This document shows positions 18,557 through 24,959 of a DNA stretch of 45,318 bases, piece after piece; the stretch's first letter is position 1, and each line of letters begins with the position of its first letter. This DNA is from Lachnospiraceae bacterium (GTDB lineage: Bacteria; Bacillota; Clostridia; Lachnospirales; Lachnospiraceae). The stretch spans positions 1 to 45,318 of the forward strand of contig JAFZRH010000007.1 of the NCBI GenBank assembly GCA_017619975.1. Direction: 5' to 3'. A model generated the notes under the pieces. It searched no databases, had not been told where the DNA came from, and worked only from the letters and a program-made list of their open reading frames with translations. The translations under genes and the position numbers were made by a program.

Positions 18557-20521
18557 TTATGTTGTAATAAGCCGAGTTATACTTCTCCGAAGGAAGACGA
18601 CCGCGCTCAGCCAGACAGTCAGCAAATGCATCAGTGCCAAAACTCCGATCATGCGGCCCAACTGTACGGGATCCGGCAGCGGGAAGCTCCCGCCCAGGGA
18701 AAGCGCATACACGGCGGCAAGCAGGAGATATACCAACACAGCCAGCAGGAGTGAGCCCAGCATTTTCACCGTATATTCCAGCAGGATCAGCCGACGGATG
18801 CGGCCTTTTGACAGCCCGAAGATCTGCAGATAGCCCAGCTCCCGGCGCCGGTAGAACAGCTCCAGCCGGATCACGGACACCGTGTAGAGACAGGCGATGA
18901 AAAAGAGGGCCAGCAGCACGATGAAGGCGATGCGGACGTAGAAATCGGTCTGGGCTTTCAGCTGCCGGATGTACTGCAGATAGCGGTTCAGGGAATCACT
19001 GTCATTGTATTTCAGGCGGTCCTGCAGATCTTCATCGTTCCAGATACCAGGCGCGCTTGCCATGACGATGCCGCCATAGCTTTCTTTTTTCGTGCCGATC
19101 GTCTGAAGCAGCGAATAGGCCAGGAAAAGATGCTGATCTTCCGCCCGGAGAGGCCGGTTGTCCTTCCCGTAGGCATAATACCAGTCGTTGCGAAAATCTC
19201 CCCGGTATCCTTCGTTGCTCACAATCCCGCTGACGCTGAGCTTCAGGCCGCAGAAAGAAAAGTCCTGACCGAGACAGTTTTCGGGATGTTCCGGATCGCC
19301 GCTTAAAACCGTTGCCAGTGAAATATTGACCAGTACTTCCGTTTCTTTTTCCGGGAAGCGGCCGTAGCTTAAGGCGCCCGCAGTGCCTAAAACACTGTAC
19401 TCTTTCGGAAGCAGGTAATAGGCGGTCACTTCGCCTTCTTCAGCGAAATAACAGTCGTAGATCGTCAGGCGGCTCTTCGTCTTTTCGCTCATGGATGCCA
19501 CGACGGAAGGCTGAAGCTCGATCAGATCGACTGGCCGGTCCTTTCGGTACAGACGGATAGCTTCCTCGGTCACGTTCTTCTGCAGGGCGGATCCCAGCAG
19601 AATGATCAGGAAAAAGAGGCCCGTCAGGAAGAGGTTTTTCAGCTTTAAGAGGCCCGGGCGGCGCTTGAAGACGTAGGTGAGAGAAGGGAAAAACTTCCTG
19701 CTCCTGCTATGTGCAGGCCCCCCCTGCCCTCTCCCGCGTAAAGCGGGGGAGGGTGTCGCTGAAGGCGACGGGAGGGGGCGACTGGCCAAGAAGGATTCCT
19801 CTGCTCGCCCTTCTCTGCCTTCACAAAGTTGATTGCTTTGCAATCCTTGAACCTCGTGCTTCGCGCGAGGAGGTTGCTCAGGCACCTCTTCCCGCATTCC
19901 CGGGGGGAGGCAAGGCCCTGCATTCTCCCGGGGCGGGCAGGGCTGCAGCACCCCGTAATCCAGGCGCCAGATCTCATCCGCAGCTTCGTCAAAGTAATCT
20001 TCATGCGTGGCGACGATCACGATGCGGTCATCGGCCTTTAACGCTGCGATCTTCTCCGCGATCTTCCGGGAGTTTTCATCGTCCAGCGACGCGGTCGGTT
20101 CATCGGCAAGCAGAAGTCGCGGATCCCTCAGCAAAGCGCGTTCAATAGCCGCTCTCTGCCGCTCCCCGCCGGAGAGCGTACCGGGCAGCTTATCCAGTAA
20201 ATCCGCTATCCCCAGCGCTCCCGCCTGCGCCGTGACGGCTTCCTTGTCATGGCGGATCAGCTCCAGGTTTTCCCGGACCGTGAGAGTGGAAAGCAGCAGG
20301 CTTCGCTGAAAAATATAAGCACTGTGCAGTTTTTCGGGGCTGCGGACGATCTTTCCTTCAAACTCTTTTTCCACGCCGCCGAGGATATTGAGGAGCGTGC
20401 TTTTTCCGCAGCCGCTGACGCCCTTGATCACATAAAGCTTTCCGCCTTCAAAGCGGCAGCTGATCTCTTTCAGGACCGGGCGGTCGTAGCTCTTTGAAAC
20501 GGCTTCAAGAATCAGTTCCAT
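18557..20521 (-). CDS. ABC transporter ATPase-permease fusion (second of the pair)
   Basis: A 654-residue fusion of an ABC ATPase and a MacB/FtsX-type permease. The ATPase (about 1-205) has Walker A GVSGCGKST, signature LSGGERQRAA, Walker B RLLLADEPTASLD and H-loop ATHE. A linker of about 85 residues follows, coded largely by a palindromic DNA repeat (19725-19912). The permease has a first membrane helix (LTGLFFLIILLGSAL), an outside domain of about 225 residues and three C-terminal helices, the four-helix MacB/FtsX plan. Such fusions act as pairs in peptide resistance or lipoprotein extrusion. The gene starts 12 bp after its partner behind AAGGAGGGCGGG. The substrate is unknown; regulation by the BlaI/M56 pair suggests response to a cell-wall or peptide stress. 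Confidence 0.9.
   Translation of the reverse strand: MELILEAVSKSYDRPVLKEISCRFEGGKLYVIKGVSGCGKSTLLNILGGVEKEFEGKIVRSPEKLHSAYIFQRSLLLSTLTVRENLELIRHDKEAVTAQAGALGIADLLDKLPGTLSGGERQRAAIERALLRDPRLLLADEPTASLDDENSRKIAEKIAALKADDRIVIVATHEDYFDEAADEIWRLDYGVLQPCPPRENAGPCLPPGMREEVPEQPPRAKHEVQGLQSNQLCEGREGRAEESFLASRPLPSPSATPSPALRGRGQGGPAHSRSRKFFPSLTYVFKRRPGLLKLKNLFLTGLFFLIILLGSALQKNVTEEAIRLYRKDRPVDLIELQPSVVASMSEKTKSRLTIYDCYFAEEGEVTAYYLLPKEYSVLGTAGALSYGRFPEKETEVLVNISLATVLSGDPEHPENCLGQDFSFCGLKLSVSGIVSNEGYRGDFRNDWYYAYGKDNRPLRAEDQHLFLAYSLLQTIGTKKESYGGIVMASAPGIWNDEDLQDRLKYNDSDSLNRYLQYIRQLKAQTDFYVRIAFIVLLALFFIACLYTVSVIRLELFYRRRELGYLQIFGLSKGRIRRLILLEYTVKMLGSLLLAVLVYLLLAAVYALSLGGSFPLPDPVQLGRMIGVLALMHLLTVWLSAVVFLRRSITRLITT
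19725..19912. repeat. Palindromic repeat inserted in frame in an ABC gene, copy A (188 bp)
   Basis: It runs from TGCCCTCTCCCGCG to CGGGGGGAGGCA and holds nested hairpins (GTCGC/GCGAC, CCCTC/GAGGG type). It matches copy B (21831-21967): one 43-base block starting at 19742 has only two mismatches. It is longer than copy B by 51 bp, a multiple of three. On the minus strand both copies are read in the same frame, giving a SRPLPSPSATPSPA-type peptide in the linker between ATPase and permease. Confidence 0.85.
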
Positions 20522-20533
20522 CTCCCGCCCTCC

Positions 20534-22585
20534 TTATAAAAGATCCCTGGATGCGATCAGAAGATCGTACCAGCTTTCGCTTTGATAACGCCTGAACGTC
20601 AGCAGCAGGACCAGAAAAGCCATGCCGAAGAGCAGCAGGCAGAAGGCAAGGATCAGCCAGGGATTATAGCTGAAGACCTCCAGCGGCAAAAAGAAGCGGC
20701 TCCGGTTGATCCTGTTTCCCGCCACGGTCAGCACTGCGGTCAGGGCCGCCGCGATCAGCAGCTGTTTGGCGAGTTCCCAGAGAGAAAGGCCCGTCAGCTG
20801 CCGGAGAAGCTTTCTTTTTTCAAAACCGGCATATTCAAAGACAGCTACAAAACGGCTGTTATATAAGAACTCTGTTTTTCGCAGCACTCCGTAAAACAGA
20901 CCGGTCAGGAGAGTTACGAGGGCCGCCGAAGGCAGCAGGATCCGGGAAATCAGCGGCCAGCGCAGCGAGTAATTGATGGGCAGGCCGGCTTTCTCCAGTG
21001 TAAAGTCTGAGCCGTATTTTTCCTTTAAGGCAGCCGCGTAATCCCGGTAATACGCGTTCATCTGGGAATAATTGTCAAAGTACAGATACCAGACCTGCTG
21101 CCAGCCGCCGCTGTTTGTATGGAAACTTTCGTCATTCCGATAGCTGTCTGTCGTCGATGCGCTGACGAAAAACAGATCCCGTTCGTTTTCCGGGTCCACG
21201 TCCTTTCCGTAACGGATCTGTGAAACGCCGGCGGCATCCAGATATACACGCTCCGCATCATCCATATCGTCCGTGATGCCGACGATGGTCAGTTTTACCT
21301 CGCCCCGCTTATACATCTTTTTGAAGATCGTGGTGCCGACCAGCTTTTCCGCCCGCTTCCCGGCCAGCTTTTCCGCCATGGCCGGAGACAAAATGACCTG
21401 ATCCGGACCGGTGAACCAGCTGCCGTAACGAAGGCTTTCACTGATACGGCAAAGCGACGGGTCGTCCGGGAGCCCATTTAGGGTCACAATGTAATCAGGC
21501 AATTCATACACGAGGACGTCCGGAGAATAGGTAATGCCGTCCGGACAGTTCGAATATGGGAGAACCAGGGAGCGAAGGCGCGGATCCTCCGGCAGCACTT
21601 CGTTGATGTCCAGAGCGCCGTGGAGCGTCAGTTTCAGCATATTCAGATGATACATCTTGTCCATGGTCGCGTCGCTTTTGTGAGAAGGCGTGTCTGCCAG
21701 ACAGACCAGGCAAAGGACCAGGGTGAGGAAGAAAATAAAGCAGATACGGGAAAAGCGCTCACGTTTTCCCGAATGAAACCATTTTTTGAGAAAAGGACGG
21801 GGGTCACGGTTTTTTTCAAGTTGAGAGACTTGCCCTCCCCCGGAAGCGGGGGAGGGTGTCGCCGAAGGCGACAGGAGGGGGCGACTCGTCAGAGGAGTTT
21901 CCTCTGTTCGCCCCCCTCCGCCTTCGCTTCGCTCAGGATCCTCCCCCCGCGTTCCCGGGGGGTGGCAGGCGCCTACCTTTCCCGTCCCTTTTTCAAACCT
22001 TATCACTTCATCCGCATAGGGCAGAGCATCTGCATCATGCGTCGCGCAGAGGATCAGGACCTTTCCCGAAAGATTCTTCAGCAGTTCAAAGATTTGTCCT
22101 TTATTCTTTTCATCCAGCGCGGCCGTCGGCTCATCCAAAAGCAGGATCTTCCGTCCTTTTAAGAGGGCCCGCGCCAGAGCCAGCCTTTGCCTTTCCCCGC
22201 CGGAAAGCGTGGGCGGCAGCTGTTCTGCTTTCTCTCCCAGACCGAAACGGGCCAGGCTTTCCCGAACCGTCTCATCGGAAGCACCGAGCAGCTTCAGATT
22301 GTCAAAGACGCTTAGAAAATCCGCAAAGAACGGATCCTGCGTAATGTATTCCGCCTCACCGTTCAGCATTTCCGGCAGCTGGCAGTCAAAGCTTTTGTCC
22401 TGCCATACGATGCTCCCCTCCTCAAACGGCAGCATCCCGGCCAGGATGTTTAAGAAGGTCGTCTTCCCGCTGCCGCTCTCACCTAAAAGCAAGGTAAAGC
22501 CGATATCCGCCAGACACAGACTGACCTCCCGCAGCGTCGGCGGCTGACCTGAATAGCTTTTCCACAGATTTTTTATCGTAATCAT
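20534..22585 (-). CDS. ABC transporter ATPase-permease fusion (first of the pair)
   Basis: A 683-residue partner of the next gene. The ATPase (about 1-200) has Walker A GESGSGKTT, signature LSGGERQRLA, Walker B ILLLDEPTAALD and H-loop CATHD. A linker of about 70 residues is coded by palindromic repeat copy B. The permease has a helix at ICFIFFLTLVLCLVCLAD, an outside domain of about 250 residues, and three C-terminal helices, as in MacB/FtsX. I chose ATG 22583-22585: it overlaps the stop of the M56 gene by four bases (ATGA) with GCGGAG ahead of it. The longer frame to 22657 lies wholly inside the M56 gene. The two ABC proteins differ strongly outside the repeat, so they likely form a heterodimeric transporter rather than a recent duplicate. 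Confidence 0.9.
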   Translation of the reverse strand: MITIKNLWKSYSGQPPTLREVSLCLADIGFTLLLGESGSGKTTFLNILAGMLPFEEGSIVWQDKSFDCQLPEMLNGEAEYITQDPFFADFLSVFDNLKLLGASDETVRESLARFGLGEKAEQLPPTLSGGERQRLALARALLKGRKILLLDEPTAALDEKNKGQIFELLKNLSGKVLILCATHDADALPYADEVIRFEKGTGKVGACHPPGTRGEDPERSEGGGGRTEETPLTSRPLLSPSATPSPASGGGQVSQLEKNRDPRPFLKKWFHSGKRERFSRICFIFFLTLVLCLVCLADTPSHKSDATMDKMYHLNMLKLTLHGALDINEVLPEDPRLRSLVLPYSNCPDGITYSPDVLVYELPDYIVTLNGLPDDPSLCRISESLRYGSWFTGPDQVILSPAMAEKLAGKRAEKLVGTTIFKKMYKRGEVKLTIVGITDDMDDAERVYLDAAGVSQIRYGKDVDPENERDLFFVSASTTDSYRNDESFHTNSGGWQQVWYLYFDNYSQMNAYYRDYAAALKEKYGSDFTLEKAGLPINYSLRWPLISRILLPSAALVTLLTGLFYGVLRKTEFLYNSRFVAVFEYAGFEKRKLLRQLTGLSLWELAKQLLIAAALTAVLTVAGNRINRSRFFLPLEVFSYNPWLILAFCLLLFGMAFLVLLLTFRRYQSESWYDLLIASRDLL
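21831..21967. repeat. Palindromic repeat inserted in frame in an ABC gene, copy B (137 bp)
   Basis: It runs from TGCCCTCCCCCGG to CGGGGGGTGGCA. It contains CCCTCCCCC/GGGGGAGGG, GTCGCC/GGCGAC and CCCCCCG/CGGGGGG pairings and a CTTCGCTTCGCTCAGGAT segment that also occurs in the MITE-like repeats of this window. It codes SRPLLSPSATPSPA and flanking residues in the linker of the first ABC gene. Confidence 0.85.
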
Positions 22586-24537
22586 CTTGTCTCCGCAGGC
22601 ATTGTGTCCGGATGCGGCCCGGGAGCATCTTCCGGCTCTGTGTTTTCTCCGGTCCATTCAATGACAGGCATGCTTTCACCCGGGACGTCCTGTCTCGGCA
22701 GGTAGTAGTCTGTCGGCCACATGATATTCATCAGATCGTTCGTCATATCGTACAGCCGTCCGAAATCGATCCCGCCGATCACGGTATCCTTGTAGGACTC
22801 CGAGCCGTAGTTCGGTTCAAACTCCCGCCCTTTCAGACTTTCCGAGATCTGCCGCAGCAGGGCATAGGCTTCCTGCTGCTCAGCTGTCGCCTTTCCTTCT
22901 TCAACAAGATCAGAAAGCAAAACGAAGTTATCCGCGTCGCCGTAAGCCACGTCGATGAACACCTCATCCATGAAGCCCCAGCATTCCAGCATCGCAAAGC
23001 GGAACACGTAACCGTCCAGAAAACTTCTTTCCCGGAAGTAATCGGCCCCGTAGAACGGGCCGTCGAAGCTTCTTTGCCGTTCCGGCCAGCGCGGTGTCGC
23101 CGTCAGAGCGGCTCTCATCAGACGGAAGAACTGGTCTTTATCCAGTACTTCGAACTCAACCGAAGCCGGATCCAAAGCAAGAAGATCCTCCGGCAGGGTG
23201 CCCTCTTTCACGAGTATACTTGTAATAACTGCCAAATCCCGCTCCAGGCCCTCTATATTCTCACTGAAGCCCGCATATTTATACTGTCTTGACTTGATAC
23301 CTTCCTGGTAATTAGATTGTCCGGTTCCGATCTGCACCGGGTCATCATCCCAATGACGGATATTATTAATCTCGAAGCTGTATATGGGGGTTCGATCCCA
23401 TATGCTTCTATCCATATAATCTTCATATATAAAGCTGACTATCCACCCATCTCCAGCCGCATCTCCTTCCCGGGCCGCGATTCGGTATCTGTTTTTCCCT
23501 CCGAGCAGTGTACTCTCCGGGATGTCTGTCTCGGACTGCGCCCCAGTCGGATTCGTCAGTGCGCAGCCGGCGGCGACAAGAGAAACAATCCCCATGGCTG
23601 CCACAATCCACACAGCGGGCTTTTTGTAATACAGGGCTGCTCTCACCCGTTCTTTGATCCCGACCTCCCCGAAAGCCACCGGGCAGGCACTGATCCAGCG
23701 CTTTGGGGCACTTAAGGCTAAGAGAGAAGAGGAATAAGACTTTCTGTATTCCAGCGACTCTCCCCGGATCGCCCGCTCATCGCAGGCTTTTTCGATATCC
23801 CGGCAAAGCAATCCATAACTGATCCACAGAATCGGATTGAACCAGTGCAGGGAAAGCAGCAAAAAGCCAAGAAGCTTCCAGCAGGGATCTTTTCGGGCGA
23901 TATGCGCGTGCTCGTGCGCCAGCACGCAGCCCAGAGCCTCTTCGGAAAGATCGGAAGGAATATAAATGCGGGGCCGAAGCAGCCCGAAAACAAAGGGCGA
24001 GCCCGGTTCATCGCAGAACCAGACATTTTCCTCCTGGTGCACCGAGAGACGTGACTTTTGCCAGACTTTGAAATAACTGAAGGCCATGTACAGGAGCATC
24101 AGCAGCGCACCGCCCGCCCAGAAAAGAGACAGGACCGGCAGGAAACGCTCTCCCAGCGTCTTCGACGCCGTCAGGCTGTCTTTCGTTACCAGCACATACG
24201 CCTGACCGTCACTGTCCCGGTGCAGCGCGGTATCCCGGCGCTCAATGATCTCCATAAACGCCGGATCTTCCGATTCGATTCTGACGACCTCTTCCGGAAC
24301 GGACTGCGCCAGCTGCGTTACGGCGCTGCCGCTGCTGAGGGCTTCCGGCACTGCCGAGACCCTGCTTACCGGTAATTGCCAGATGAGAAGACGAACAGCG
24401 ACCAGCAGCCAGAGCGCGCAGATAAGGCCCCGCGGCGCTTTTCGAAAGATCAGGCGGAGCGTCATCACGATCAGCGCCGCAAACGAGGCGGAAATACTGA
24501 TTTTCAGGATCTGTAAGAAAACTTCCTGCAGATTCAT
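22582..24537 (-). CDS. M56-family (BlaR1/MecR1-type) membrane sensor protease
   Basis: A 651-residue integral membrane metalloprotease. Hydrophobic helices near residues 10-35, 40-58, 135-155 and 222-245 surround a cytoplasmic zinc protease loop with H208-E-H-A-H212 in VLAHEHAHIARKD and the downstream DIEKACDERA. A fifth helix (about 308-326) leads to an outside domain of about 325 residues. That domain has no penicillin-binding S-x-x-K/S-x-N/K-T-G set that I can see, so the signal is probably not a beta-lactam. In BlaR1/MecR1 systems ligand binding activates the protease, which relieves BlaI repression. Four-base overlaps join it to both the BlaI gene upstream and the first ABC gene downstream. 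Confidence 0.92.
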   Translation of the reverse strand: MNLQEVFLQILKISISASFAALIVMTLRLIFRKAPRGLICALWLLVAVRLLIWQLPVSRVSAVPEALSSGSAVTQLAQSVPEEVVRIESEDPAFMEIIERRDTALHRDSDGQAYVLVTKDSLTASKTLGERFLPVLSLFWAGGALLMLLYMAFSYFKVWQKSRLSVHQEENVWFCDEPGSPFVFGLLRPRIYIPSDLSEEALGCVLAHEHAHIARKDPCWKLLGFLLLSLHWFNPILWISYGLLCRDIEKACDERAIRGESLEYRKSYSSSLLALSAPKRWISACPVAFGEVGIKERVRAALYYKKPAVWIVAAMGIVSLVAAGCALTNPTGAQSETDIPESTLLGGKNRYRIAAREGDAAGDGWIVSFIYEDYMDRSIWDRTPIYSFEINNIRHWDDDPVQIGTGQSNYQEGIKSRQYKYAGFSENIEGLERDLAVITSILVKEGTLPEDLLALDPASVEFEVLDKDQFFRLMRAALTATPRWPERQRSFDGPFYGADYFRERSFLDGYVFRFAMLECWGFMDEVFIDVAYGDADNFVLLSDLVEEGKATAEQQEAYALLRQISESLKGREFEPNYGSESYKDTVIGGIDFGRLYDMTNDLMNIMWPTDYYLPRQDVPGESMPVIEWTGENTEPEDAPGPHPDTMPAETR

Positions 24538-24959
24538 TTGGCACCTCCTTCCGTGCCGGATCCGCTTTGCGGCATCTTTTGCGGCGTTTCTTCCACACAG
24601 GCGTCGATCAGACGGCGGATCTCGTCCGCTTCCTGTGCGTTCAGTTTTTTGCCTGCCGTAAAGGCCGCTATAAAAGCCGGCAGAGATCCCTCGAAGGTCT
24701 CCGCCATAAAGGTTTCACTCTGCACGGCTTTAAAGGCCTCACGGTCAAGCACGGCGCTCACGCAGCCGTCGTCCACCTTAAAAAGGCCCTTATCGCACAG
24801 ACGGCGCAAAACTGTATAAGTGGTAGAACGTGCCCAGTTCAATTCACTTTTGCACAGCTTCACAAGCTCTCCCGTAGAAAGCGGCTCATGATCCCAGACG
24901 ATCTGGGCAAATGCGTTCTCTGCCGCCCCCAGTCTGATTTCCGTATTTATCAGGCTCAT
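24534..24959 (-). CDS. BlaI/MecI/CopY-family transcriptional repressor
   Basis: A 141-residue winged-helix repressor. The DNA-binding domain (about 8-75) shows GAAENAFAQIVWDHEPLSTG, the recognition helix region NWARSTTYTVLRRLCDKG and the wing VDDGCVSAVL. The C-terminal part (about 80-125) is the helical dimer domain where BlaI/MecI proteins are cleaved. It is expected to bind the TACA/TGTA palindrome in its own promoter and to control the whole four-gene operon. Cleavage would follow activation of the adjacent M56 protease. AGGAGG precedes the ATG. The operon order repressor-sensor-ABC-ABC replaces the usual beta-lactamase target gene. Confidence 0.93.
   Translation of the reverse strand: MSLINTEIRLGAAENAFAQIVWDHEPLSTGELVKLCKSELNWARSTTYTVLRRLCDKGLFKVDDGCVSAVLDREAFKAVQSETFMAETFEGSLPAFIAAFTAGKKLNAQEADEIRRLIDACVEETPQKMPQSGSGTEGGAK

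Follow-up and report, generated by a model that had tools for sequence, protein, structure and literature searches.

Two neighboring ABC transporter genes of a Lachnospiraceae genome each carry a copy of the same palindromic DNA repeat, and we consider it very probable that both copies are inverted dimers of a genus-specific, REP/MITE-like repeat that, when inserted in frame, persists at places where a protein can tolerate an additional linker. Comparison of the sequences establishes the repeat family and its predicted hairpins, frames that stay open through the copies inside genes, a linker position for most of these sites and recurrent insertion at shared linkers in sister species. The window referred to below is the whole stretch of 45,318 nt that was analyzed.

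Two neighboring ABC transporter genes share an in-frame repeat

A sequence-only reading of the window had placed the two copies at 19725-19912 (copy A) and 21831-21967 (copy B). Both are present there, and both would be translated in one shared frame to an SRPL(P/L)SPSATPSPA-type peptide located between the ATPase and the permease of a fused ABC protein. The region contains the following features:

18557..20521, minus strand: gene A, an open reading frame for a fused ABC ATPase-FtsX permease of 654 aa (Pfam ABC_tran at 17-144, FtsX at 534-646)
20534..22585, minus strand: gene B, an open reading frame for a fused ABC ATPase-permease of 683 aa with orthologs in the genus (start chosen by script; the longest open reading frame extends to 22657)
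19724..19783, minus strand: repeat unit of copy A, AGTCGCC...GGGCAG (covariance-model match, 59.6 bits; translation)
19806..19917 (approximate), plus strand: putative inverted partner unit of copy A, split by a 48-nt block (alignment to copy B; BLAST matches elsewhere in the genome)
19825..19872, plus strand: 48-nt (16-codon) piece of a second dispersed family inside copy A (alignment gap; BLAST)
21830..21886, minus strand: repeat unit of copy B, 57 nt (covariance-model match, 81.9 bits; translation)
21908..21971 (approximate), plus strand: putative inverted partner unit of copy B (alignment; BLAST relatives)

Translated in the sense direction, the unit of copy A gives SRPLPSPSATPSPALRGRGQ and that of copy B gives SRPLLSPSATPSPASGGGQ. 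The covariance model calls one unit per copy and leaves the inverted partners uncalled; these were placed by alignment and by their BLAST relatives, which for copy B (on contigs C42, C27, C71 and C28) are weak units by the model. On this evidence, each copy consists of two double-hairpin units in inverted orientation. The inverted arrangement recurs on contig C5 (C5:32575-32716 and C5:33787-33924), with model matches on opposite strands.

As had been read from the window, a 43-base block (19741-19783 versus 21844-21886) differs between the copies at two positions. The core motif has two matches in the window versus none in 100 shuffles. The strong divergence of the flanking sequences is equally evident: the two proteins share 38% identity across the 276 positions of an alignment that spans the ATPase and ends in the repeat-coded linker, and the permeases give short, weak matches alone (best, 25 bits). 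The difference in length between the copies does consist of exactly 3 plus 48 bases, but the 48 bases, which had been attributed to the same repeat, are foreign to it. They match a second dispersed family at ten other places in the genome, all of which match this 48-nt part of the query alone, so that copy A combines sequence of two families. The second family is itself palindromic, of the GTGTCATTCCGAGC...CTCAGGATGACAC type, and occurs in the window (19825-19872) and at loci L003, L004, L006, L007, L009 and L015. HPERS-like peptides in the PurL or DUF2344 linkers of sister genomes may derive from it, on a likeness that we assume.

The AlphaFold model of gene A (mean pLDDT, 41.2) is too poor to reveal disorder. 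On the 5′ side of the ABC pair and in the same direction (window 22582-24959) lie a BlaR1/M56-like gene, which scores 43.9 bits, far under the NCBIfam cut-off, and a small gene that matches nothing in NCBIfam.

Structure, abundance and distribution of the repeat unit

Each unit opens with a few bases, mostly AGTCGCC, which are followed first by a hairpin of variable sequence and then by one that is rich in G/C and ends in GGGCAA or GGGCAG, with a length of 55-65 nt in 155 of 176 model matches (range, 37-132). We built the covariance model from 12 of 29 units, the alignment of all 29 being out of register in hairpin 1. Among 32 extracted units, 24 start with AGTC, three with AGCC, two each with CGTC and GTTC, one with TTTC and none with GTAG, counts that are biased towards AGTC because the extraction pattern allowed at most two changes from AGTCGCCC.

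Using this model, we found at least 70 copies in the source genome (G000, 2.12 Mb) at E ≤ 0.01, which is a lower bound because 150 of 2,780 first-look candidates were scored. The copy count that the sequence-only reading had proposed, made here with the covariance model, reveals a genome-wide repeat. With at most 92 candidates scored per genome, 13 of the 16 genomes of the genus matched at E ≤ 0.001, compared with none of 45 other relatives; the source genome contributed at least 65 matches, G001 at least 54 and G007 at least 46, and G002, G005 and G015 had none among the candidates scored. Across the order, with at most 16 candidates scored per genome, one of 344 genomes, the source genome alone, matched at E ≤ 1e-6. 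A strict pattern search of the GTDB collection identified six stretches, all in Lachnospiraceae metagenome-assembled genomes (MAGs) with RUG isolate names, from which we read a rumen origin; these MAGs are the sister genomes G001, G010 and G011. There was no match in viral contigs searched with the strict pattern or in phages and plasmids searched with copy B.

In G008 and G014, one model match each was counted at E ≤ 0.001 (at most 92 candidates scored per genome). The single G014 match sits in gene A, and the score of the single G008 match fits the unit in gene B; genic copies may outlast intergenic ones.

Paired hairpin changes and placement between genes

The two hairpins covary strongly. 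In a model-fitted alignment of 71 matches, 94.2% of pair cells were paired and 153 cells had changed on both sides (shuffle mean, 36.3; none of 500 shuffles as high) versus 14 with one-sided changes. An unfitted alignment of 12 units gave 16 double changes versus 3.9 in shuffles, again with none of 500 as high. Between co-directional genes, sense copies often lie close behind the upstream stop, with 23 of 73 ending 12-16 nt before the next start, and sense copies slightly outnumber antisense ones (73 versus 53, p = 0.09; source genome, 30 versus 16, p = 0.054).

Covariation, position and sense bias are what would be seen if the repeat were kept for a function in mRNA, with intergenic hairpins stabilizing, processing or attenuating operon transcripts and genic copies arising as by-products. 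We regard this as possible but doubtful. The orientation bias is weak, and four of the units counted in it stand in tandem in a single array; copies inside genes score no lower by the model and appear no more decayed (median, 64.1 versus 54.5 bits, p = 0.12). Moreover, the predominance of double changes suggests correction of the palindrome at the DNA level, and the scarcity of one-sided changes is explained no less well by such correction, by selection at that level or by a hairpin substrate made of DNA than by a role of the RNA.

Searches of five sources for known RNA families gave no match at the repeats. A lysine riboswitch (Rfam RF00168, 72 bits) lies at L174:2318-2490. In G011, the space behind metG (L307:2693-2921) is taken up by four tandem units, and the gene that follows is, to judge from its first residues, probably secA.

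Copies inside genes mostly occupy poorly conserved linkers or loops

We defined a copy as internal if its frame was open and a predicted gene extended at least 60 bases beyond it on either side. By this definition, 15 of the 70 copies in the source genome, in 11 genes, are internal and in frame, as are 15 of 106 sampled sister copies (11 in G001, three in G007 and one in G010), so the ABC pair has company. For the sister sample, regions surrounding listed matches were fetched from eight genomes, and three of 109 copies were dropped as overlaps; a further G010 copy, in HtpG, was counted as an edge copy, the contig beginning there. The in-frame rule partly reflects the method, since the gene finder was home-made and the search covered copies in open frames.

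Host genes in the source genome encode the two ABC proteins, HtpG (two copies), PurL (two), MetRS, Mfd, a Cu-type P-ATPase (two units), a DUF2344 protein (two), an acetyl-CoA-synthetase-like enzyme, an EF-G-like protein that includes a NYN domain and, at a contig end, a fragment without a Pfam match that we take to be PrmC-like. Sister hosts include MutL, PGK-TIM, a CobW-like GTPase, a DUF1385 protein, a PYC/OadA-like protein and a radical-SAM protein. Several of these genes look intact, as their scores are well above the curated equivalog cut-offs (HtpG, 662.1 bits versus 371; PurL, 1752.8 versus 1057.05; MetRS, 885.1 versus 598; Mfd, 1064 versus 800).

According to Pfam boundaries, many inserts fall between domains: ABC ATPase and permease, MetRS and tRNA_bind, PurL and GATase, EF-G and NYN, P-ATPase and HMA, the N- and C-terminal parts of MutL, and PGK and TIM. 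Others lie within a domain (AMP-binding enzyme, CobW and DUF1385), and the two inserts in HtpG occupy the two gaps that open when the protein is aligned with a solved E. coli-type HtpG. Conservation of the insertion flanks has a median at the 2.8th percentile, with 10 of 14 sites below the 10th and so in the least conserved tenth of their protein; some insert limits were set by hand and three low-identity rows were left out of the ABC alignments. Outside the least conserved tenth are PurL site 1, EF-G, PrmC (three rows) and Mfd (four rows).

In many sister genomes, the linkers at these sites are variable and unrelated to one another, as would be seen if hypervariable, low-complexity linkers had simply converged on Ser/Pro-rich sequence without a mobile repeat. 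The DNA of the inserts nevertheless matches a dispersed family with both hairpins, and the units in HtpG and MetRS are identical over 56 nt, which leaves convergence with a negligible chance. An artifact of MAG assembly or binning is scarcely more credible. Repeats often cause misassembly and G001, G010 and G011 are MAGs, but the frames are open across all 11 host genes of the source genome, the HtpG site and frame are the same in the separate assembly G010, and similar insertions occur in G001 and G007.

Phosphoglycerate kinase and triosephosphate isomerase form one fused gene in several genomes of the genus and separate frames in G014 and G006. In G001, a repeat unit lies at the PGK-TIM junction (L247:1252-3294). 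We rejected a repeat-made fusion in this genome: the genes are also fused in G004, G008, G010 and G012, where, judging by match coordinates, the junction has no room for a unit.

Reading frames of genic copies are used unevenly

Frame use of the genic copies is non-random, which answers the test for frame bias that had been proposed. The 30 internal copies are distributed over sense frames 0, 1 and 2 as 10, 0 and 3 and over antisense frames 0, 1 and 2 as 5, 3 and 9. From frame openness, 5.8 copies were expected in sense frame 0 and 6.4 in sense frame 1. The bias has a simulated p of about 0.004, which rises to 0.012 when two tandem partners in G001 are left out, in a test that treats copies across species together, shared ancestry included. 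The favored sense frame has the highest content of P, S, A, G and T (0.69). Arg plus Lys is highest in sense frame 1 (0.22) and antisense frame 1 (0.27), the least used of each orientation (0 and 3 copies). The favored frames are not simply uncharged, since the much-used antisense frame 2 is acidic (Asp plus Glu, 0.16).

The same linkers are filled repeatedly in sister species

Several linkers carry a unit in different orientations or frames in different genomes of the genus. The EF-G-like linker holds an antisense unit in the source genome and a sense unit in G010; the DUF2344 gene has sense units in the source genome and two antisense units in G001. PurL site 1 is antisense in the source genome and G007 and sense in G001, and PurL site 2 is antisense in the source genome and sense in G001. 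MetRS uses different sense frames in the source genome and G007, and ABC gene B of G008 carries a unit at the same linker in another frame than the source genome. Since the same linkers are filled in opposite orientation or in another frame in sister species, insertion has recurred independently. The G008 gene B (L091) has an internal TAA near its N-terminus and may be decaying or contain a draft error. In gene B of G010 and G014, the units are decayed, with several broken pairs, and still encode an SRPL-type peptide in the same frame.

These comparisons bear on the origin of copies A and B. The sequence-only reading had favored two independent insertions, or gene conversion, over one ancient insertion before duplication, and had proposed a search for orthologs without the insert, which do exist in the genus. 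For gene A, two of seven genomes (the source genome and G014) have the unit, and five of six orthologs lack it by the model; the closest ortholog, in G010 (86% identity), is empty, and the one in G014 (75%) is filled. Descent of both copies from a single insertion before duplication, or gene conversion between the neighbors, would agree with their shared orientation and frame, their equivalent position and the decayed same-frame units in gene B of G010 and G014. Furthermore, the nearest unit to A is B (88%; next, 86%). However, the proteins are 38% identical over their aligned part while the units are 88% alike, and the closest units to B (93-96%) are dispersed copies, with A only sixth. Descent would also need same-frame units in most A and B orthologs, against which the empty gene A orthologs and the other-frame unit in gene B of G008 speak. 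A single insertion before duplication fails to explain this pattern of units among the orthologs, and shared origin by either route is improbable. Independent insertion is thus favored, as proposed, with conversion between A and B as a less likely alternative.

A bolder view would have the repeat supply interdomain linkers again and again. In essential proteins, sister species would independently re-colonize the same linkers, selection would remove Arg/Lys-rich frames, and old copies would lose the hairpin and keep the Ser/Pro/Ala/Gly linker, as may have happened in gene B of G010 and G014. Taken furthest, this view would have hairpins of the mRNA slow ribosomes where domains meet and so aid the folding of successive domains. 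We offer this view as speculation, more likely wrong than right by a good measure.

A proposed model for spread of the repeat

Our preferred reading, of insertions that survive where a linker is tolerated, implies a non-autonomous element that would spread through the genome. Most copies lie between genes; genic copies make up 15 of 70, far under the 87% coding share of the fetched regions, and most genic hits would presumably be lost through selection against damaging insertions. Surviving hits would lie between genes or, in frame, at poorly conserved interdomain linkers and loops, where, judging by the open frames, they would be read as Ser/Pro/Ala/Gly-rich linkers with a role that may be neutral or mildly useful.

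Features of two known modes of transposition were sought. Among the 171 of 176 copies with full flanks, target-site duplication was absent as a rule, which argues against a MITE defined by a constant-length duplication. In a single case, in the AMP-binding gene, a perfect 9-bp repeat flanks the unit exactly at its ends (57-nt unit + 9 = 66 bases); other near-repeats are few, and the best excess (2 versus 0.04 expected) comes from one tandem array. Y1_Tnp (PF01797), the sole transposase searched for, is present in seven of the 16 genomes, with none in the source genome and none in copy-rich G007, both counts being from incomplete drafts. A RAYT as the mobilizer is therefore unsupported.

Comparison with known repeat families

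BIMEs and REPINs are inverted pairs of units separated by a short spacer, and A, B and other copies have the same organization. In contrast to such systems as described, the incomplete draft of the source genome has no match to a Y1 tyrosine transposase.

The GTAG/CGTC REPs are dispersed palindromes of 20-40 bp that occur singly and as inverted dimers, mostly between co-directional or convergent genes, with some intragenic copies, including in tRNA synthetases (Di Nocera et al. 2013, PMC3733652). The same survey names flexible linkers or loops as tolerated places, reports genes hit twice and notes that the recB genes of two Xanthomonas species carry REPs at roughly one site; its main text contains no occurrence of 'Firmicutes' or 'Clostridi'. 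Our repeat resembles these REPs in its short dispersed palindromes, inverted dimers and intragenic copies in linkers, and differs in its start, which is mostly AGTC in place of their terminal tag (PMC3733652). Assignment to the GTAG/CGTC REPs fails on the unpaired terminal tag (GTAG in none and CGTC in two of the 32 units, in an extraction biased towards AGTC) and on the single 20-40 bp stem-loop, as the unit here has two supported helices and is mostly 55-65 nt long.

The comparison with the palindromic elements (RPE) of Rickettsia that the sequence-only reading had drawn holds as an analogy and does not establish membership. Like RPE as described (PMC2229807, PMC10969869), the repeat is palindromic, dispersed between genes and present in frame in conserved protein genes (at least 70 copies, 15 internal), where it would add an extra peptide to unrelated proteins. 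In contrast, Rickettsia belongs to another phylum, RPE measure 105-146 bp versus 55-65 nt for the two-hairpin unit, as compared by description, and the Lachnospiraceae repeat, unlike RPE, uses five of six frames in both orientations. ERIC and other enterobacterial MITE-type elements are also small mobile repeats that can be fused in frame to genes (Delihas 2007, PMC2229807); they are longer (127-168 bp), and ERIC has target duplications, which were not found here as a rule.

Searches of the open-access literature met known kinds alone and not this family itself, which does not imply its absence from print. The best-known in-frame palindromic insertions in core genes are those of Rickettsia and of the REP-bearing bacteria surveyed in 2013. 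The Lachnospiraceae genus offers enough copies for frame counts and, in 15 sister genomes, a comparison of empty, filled and decayed linker states, so that the supply of linkers by a selfish repeat becomes directly testable. As a caution, what looks like a Ser/Pro-rich linker in a predicted protein may in fact be repeat DNA. The kind of element described here is already known, as Rickettsia RPE and as intragenic GTAG/CGTC REPs; it differs from these in its two-hairpin unit, its lineage, a measured frame bias and the fact that sister species reuse the same linkers with the unit in different orientations.
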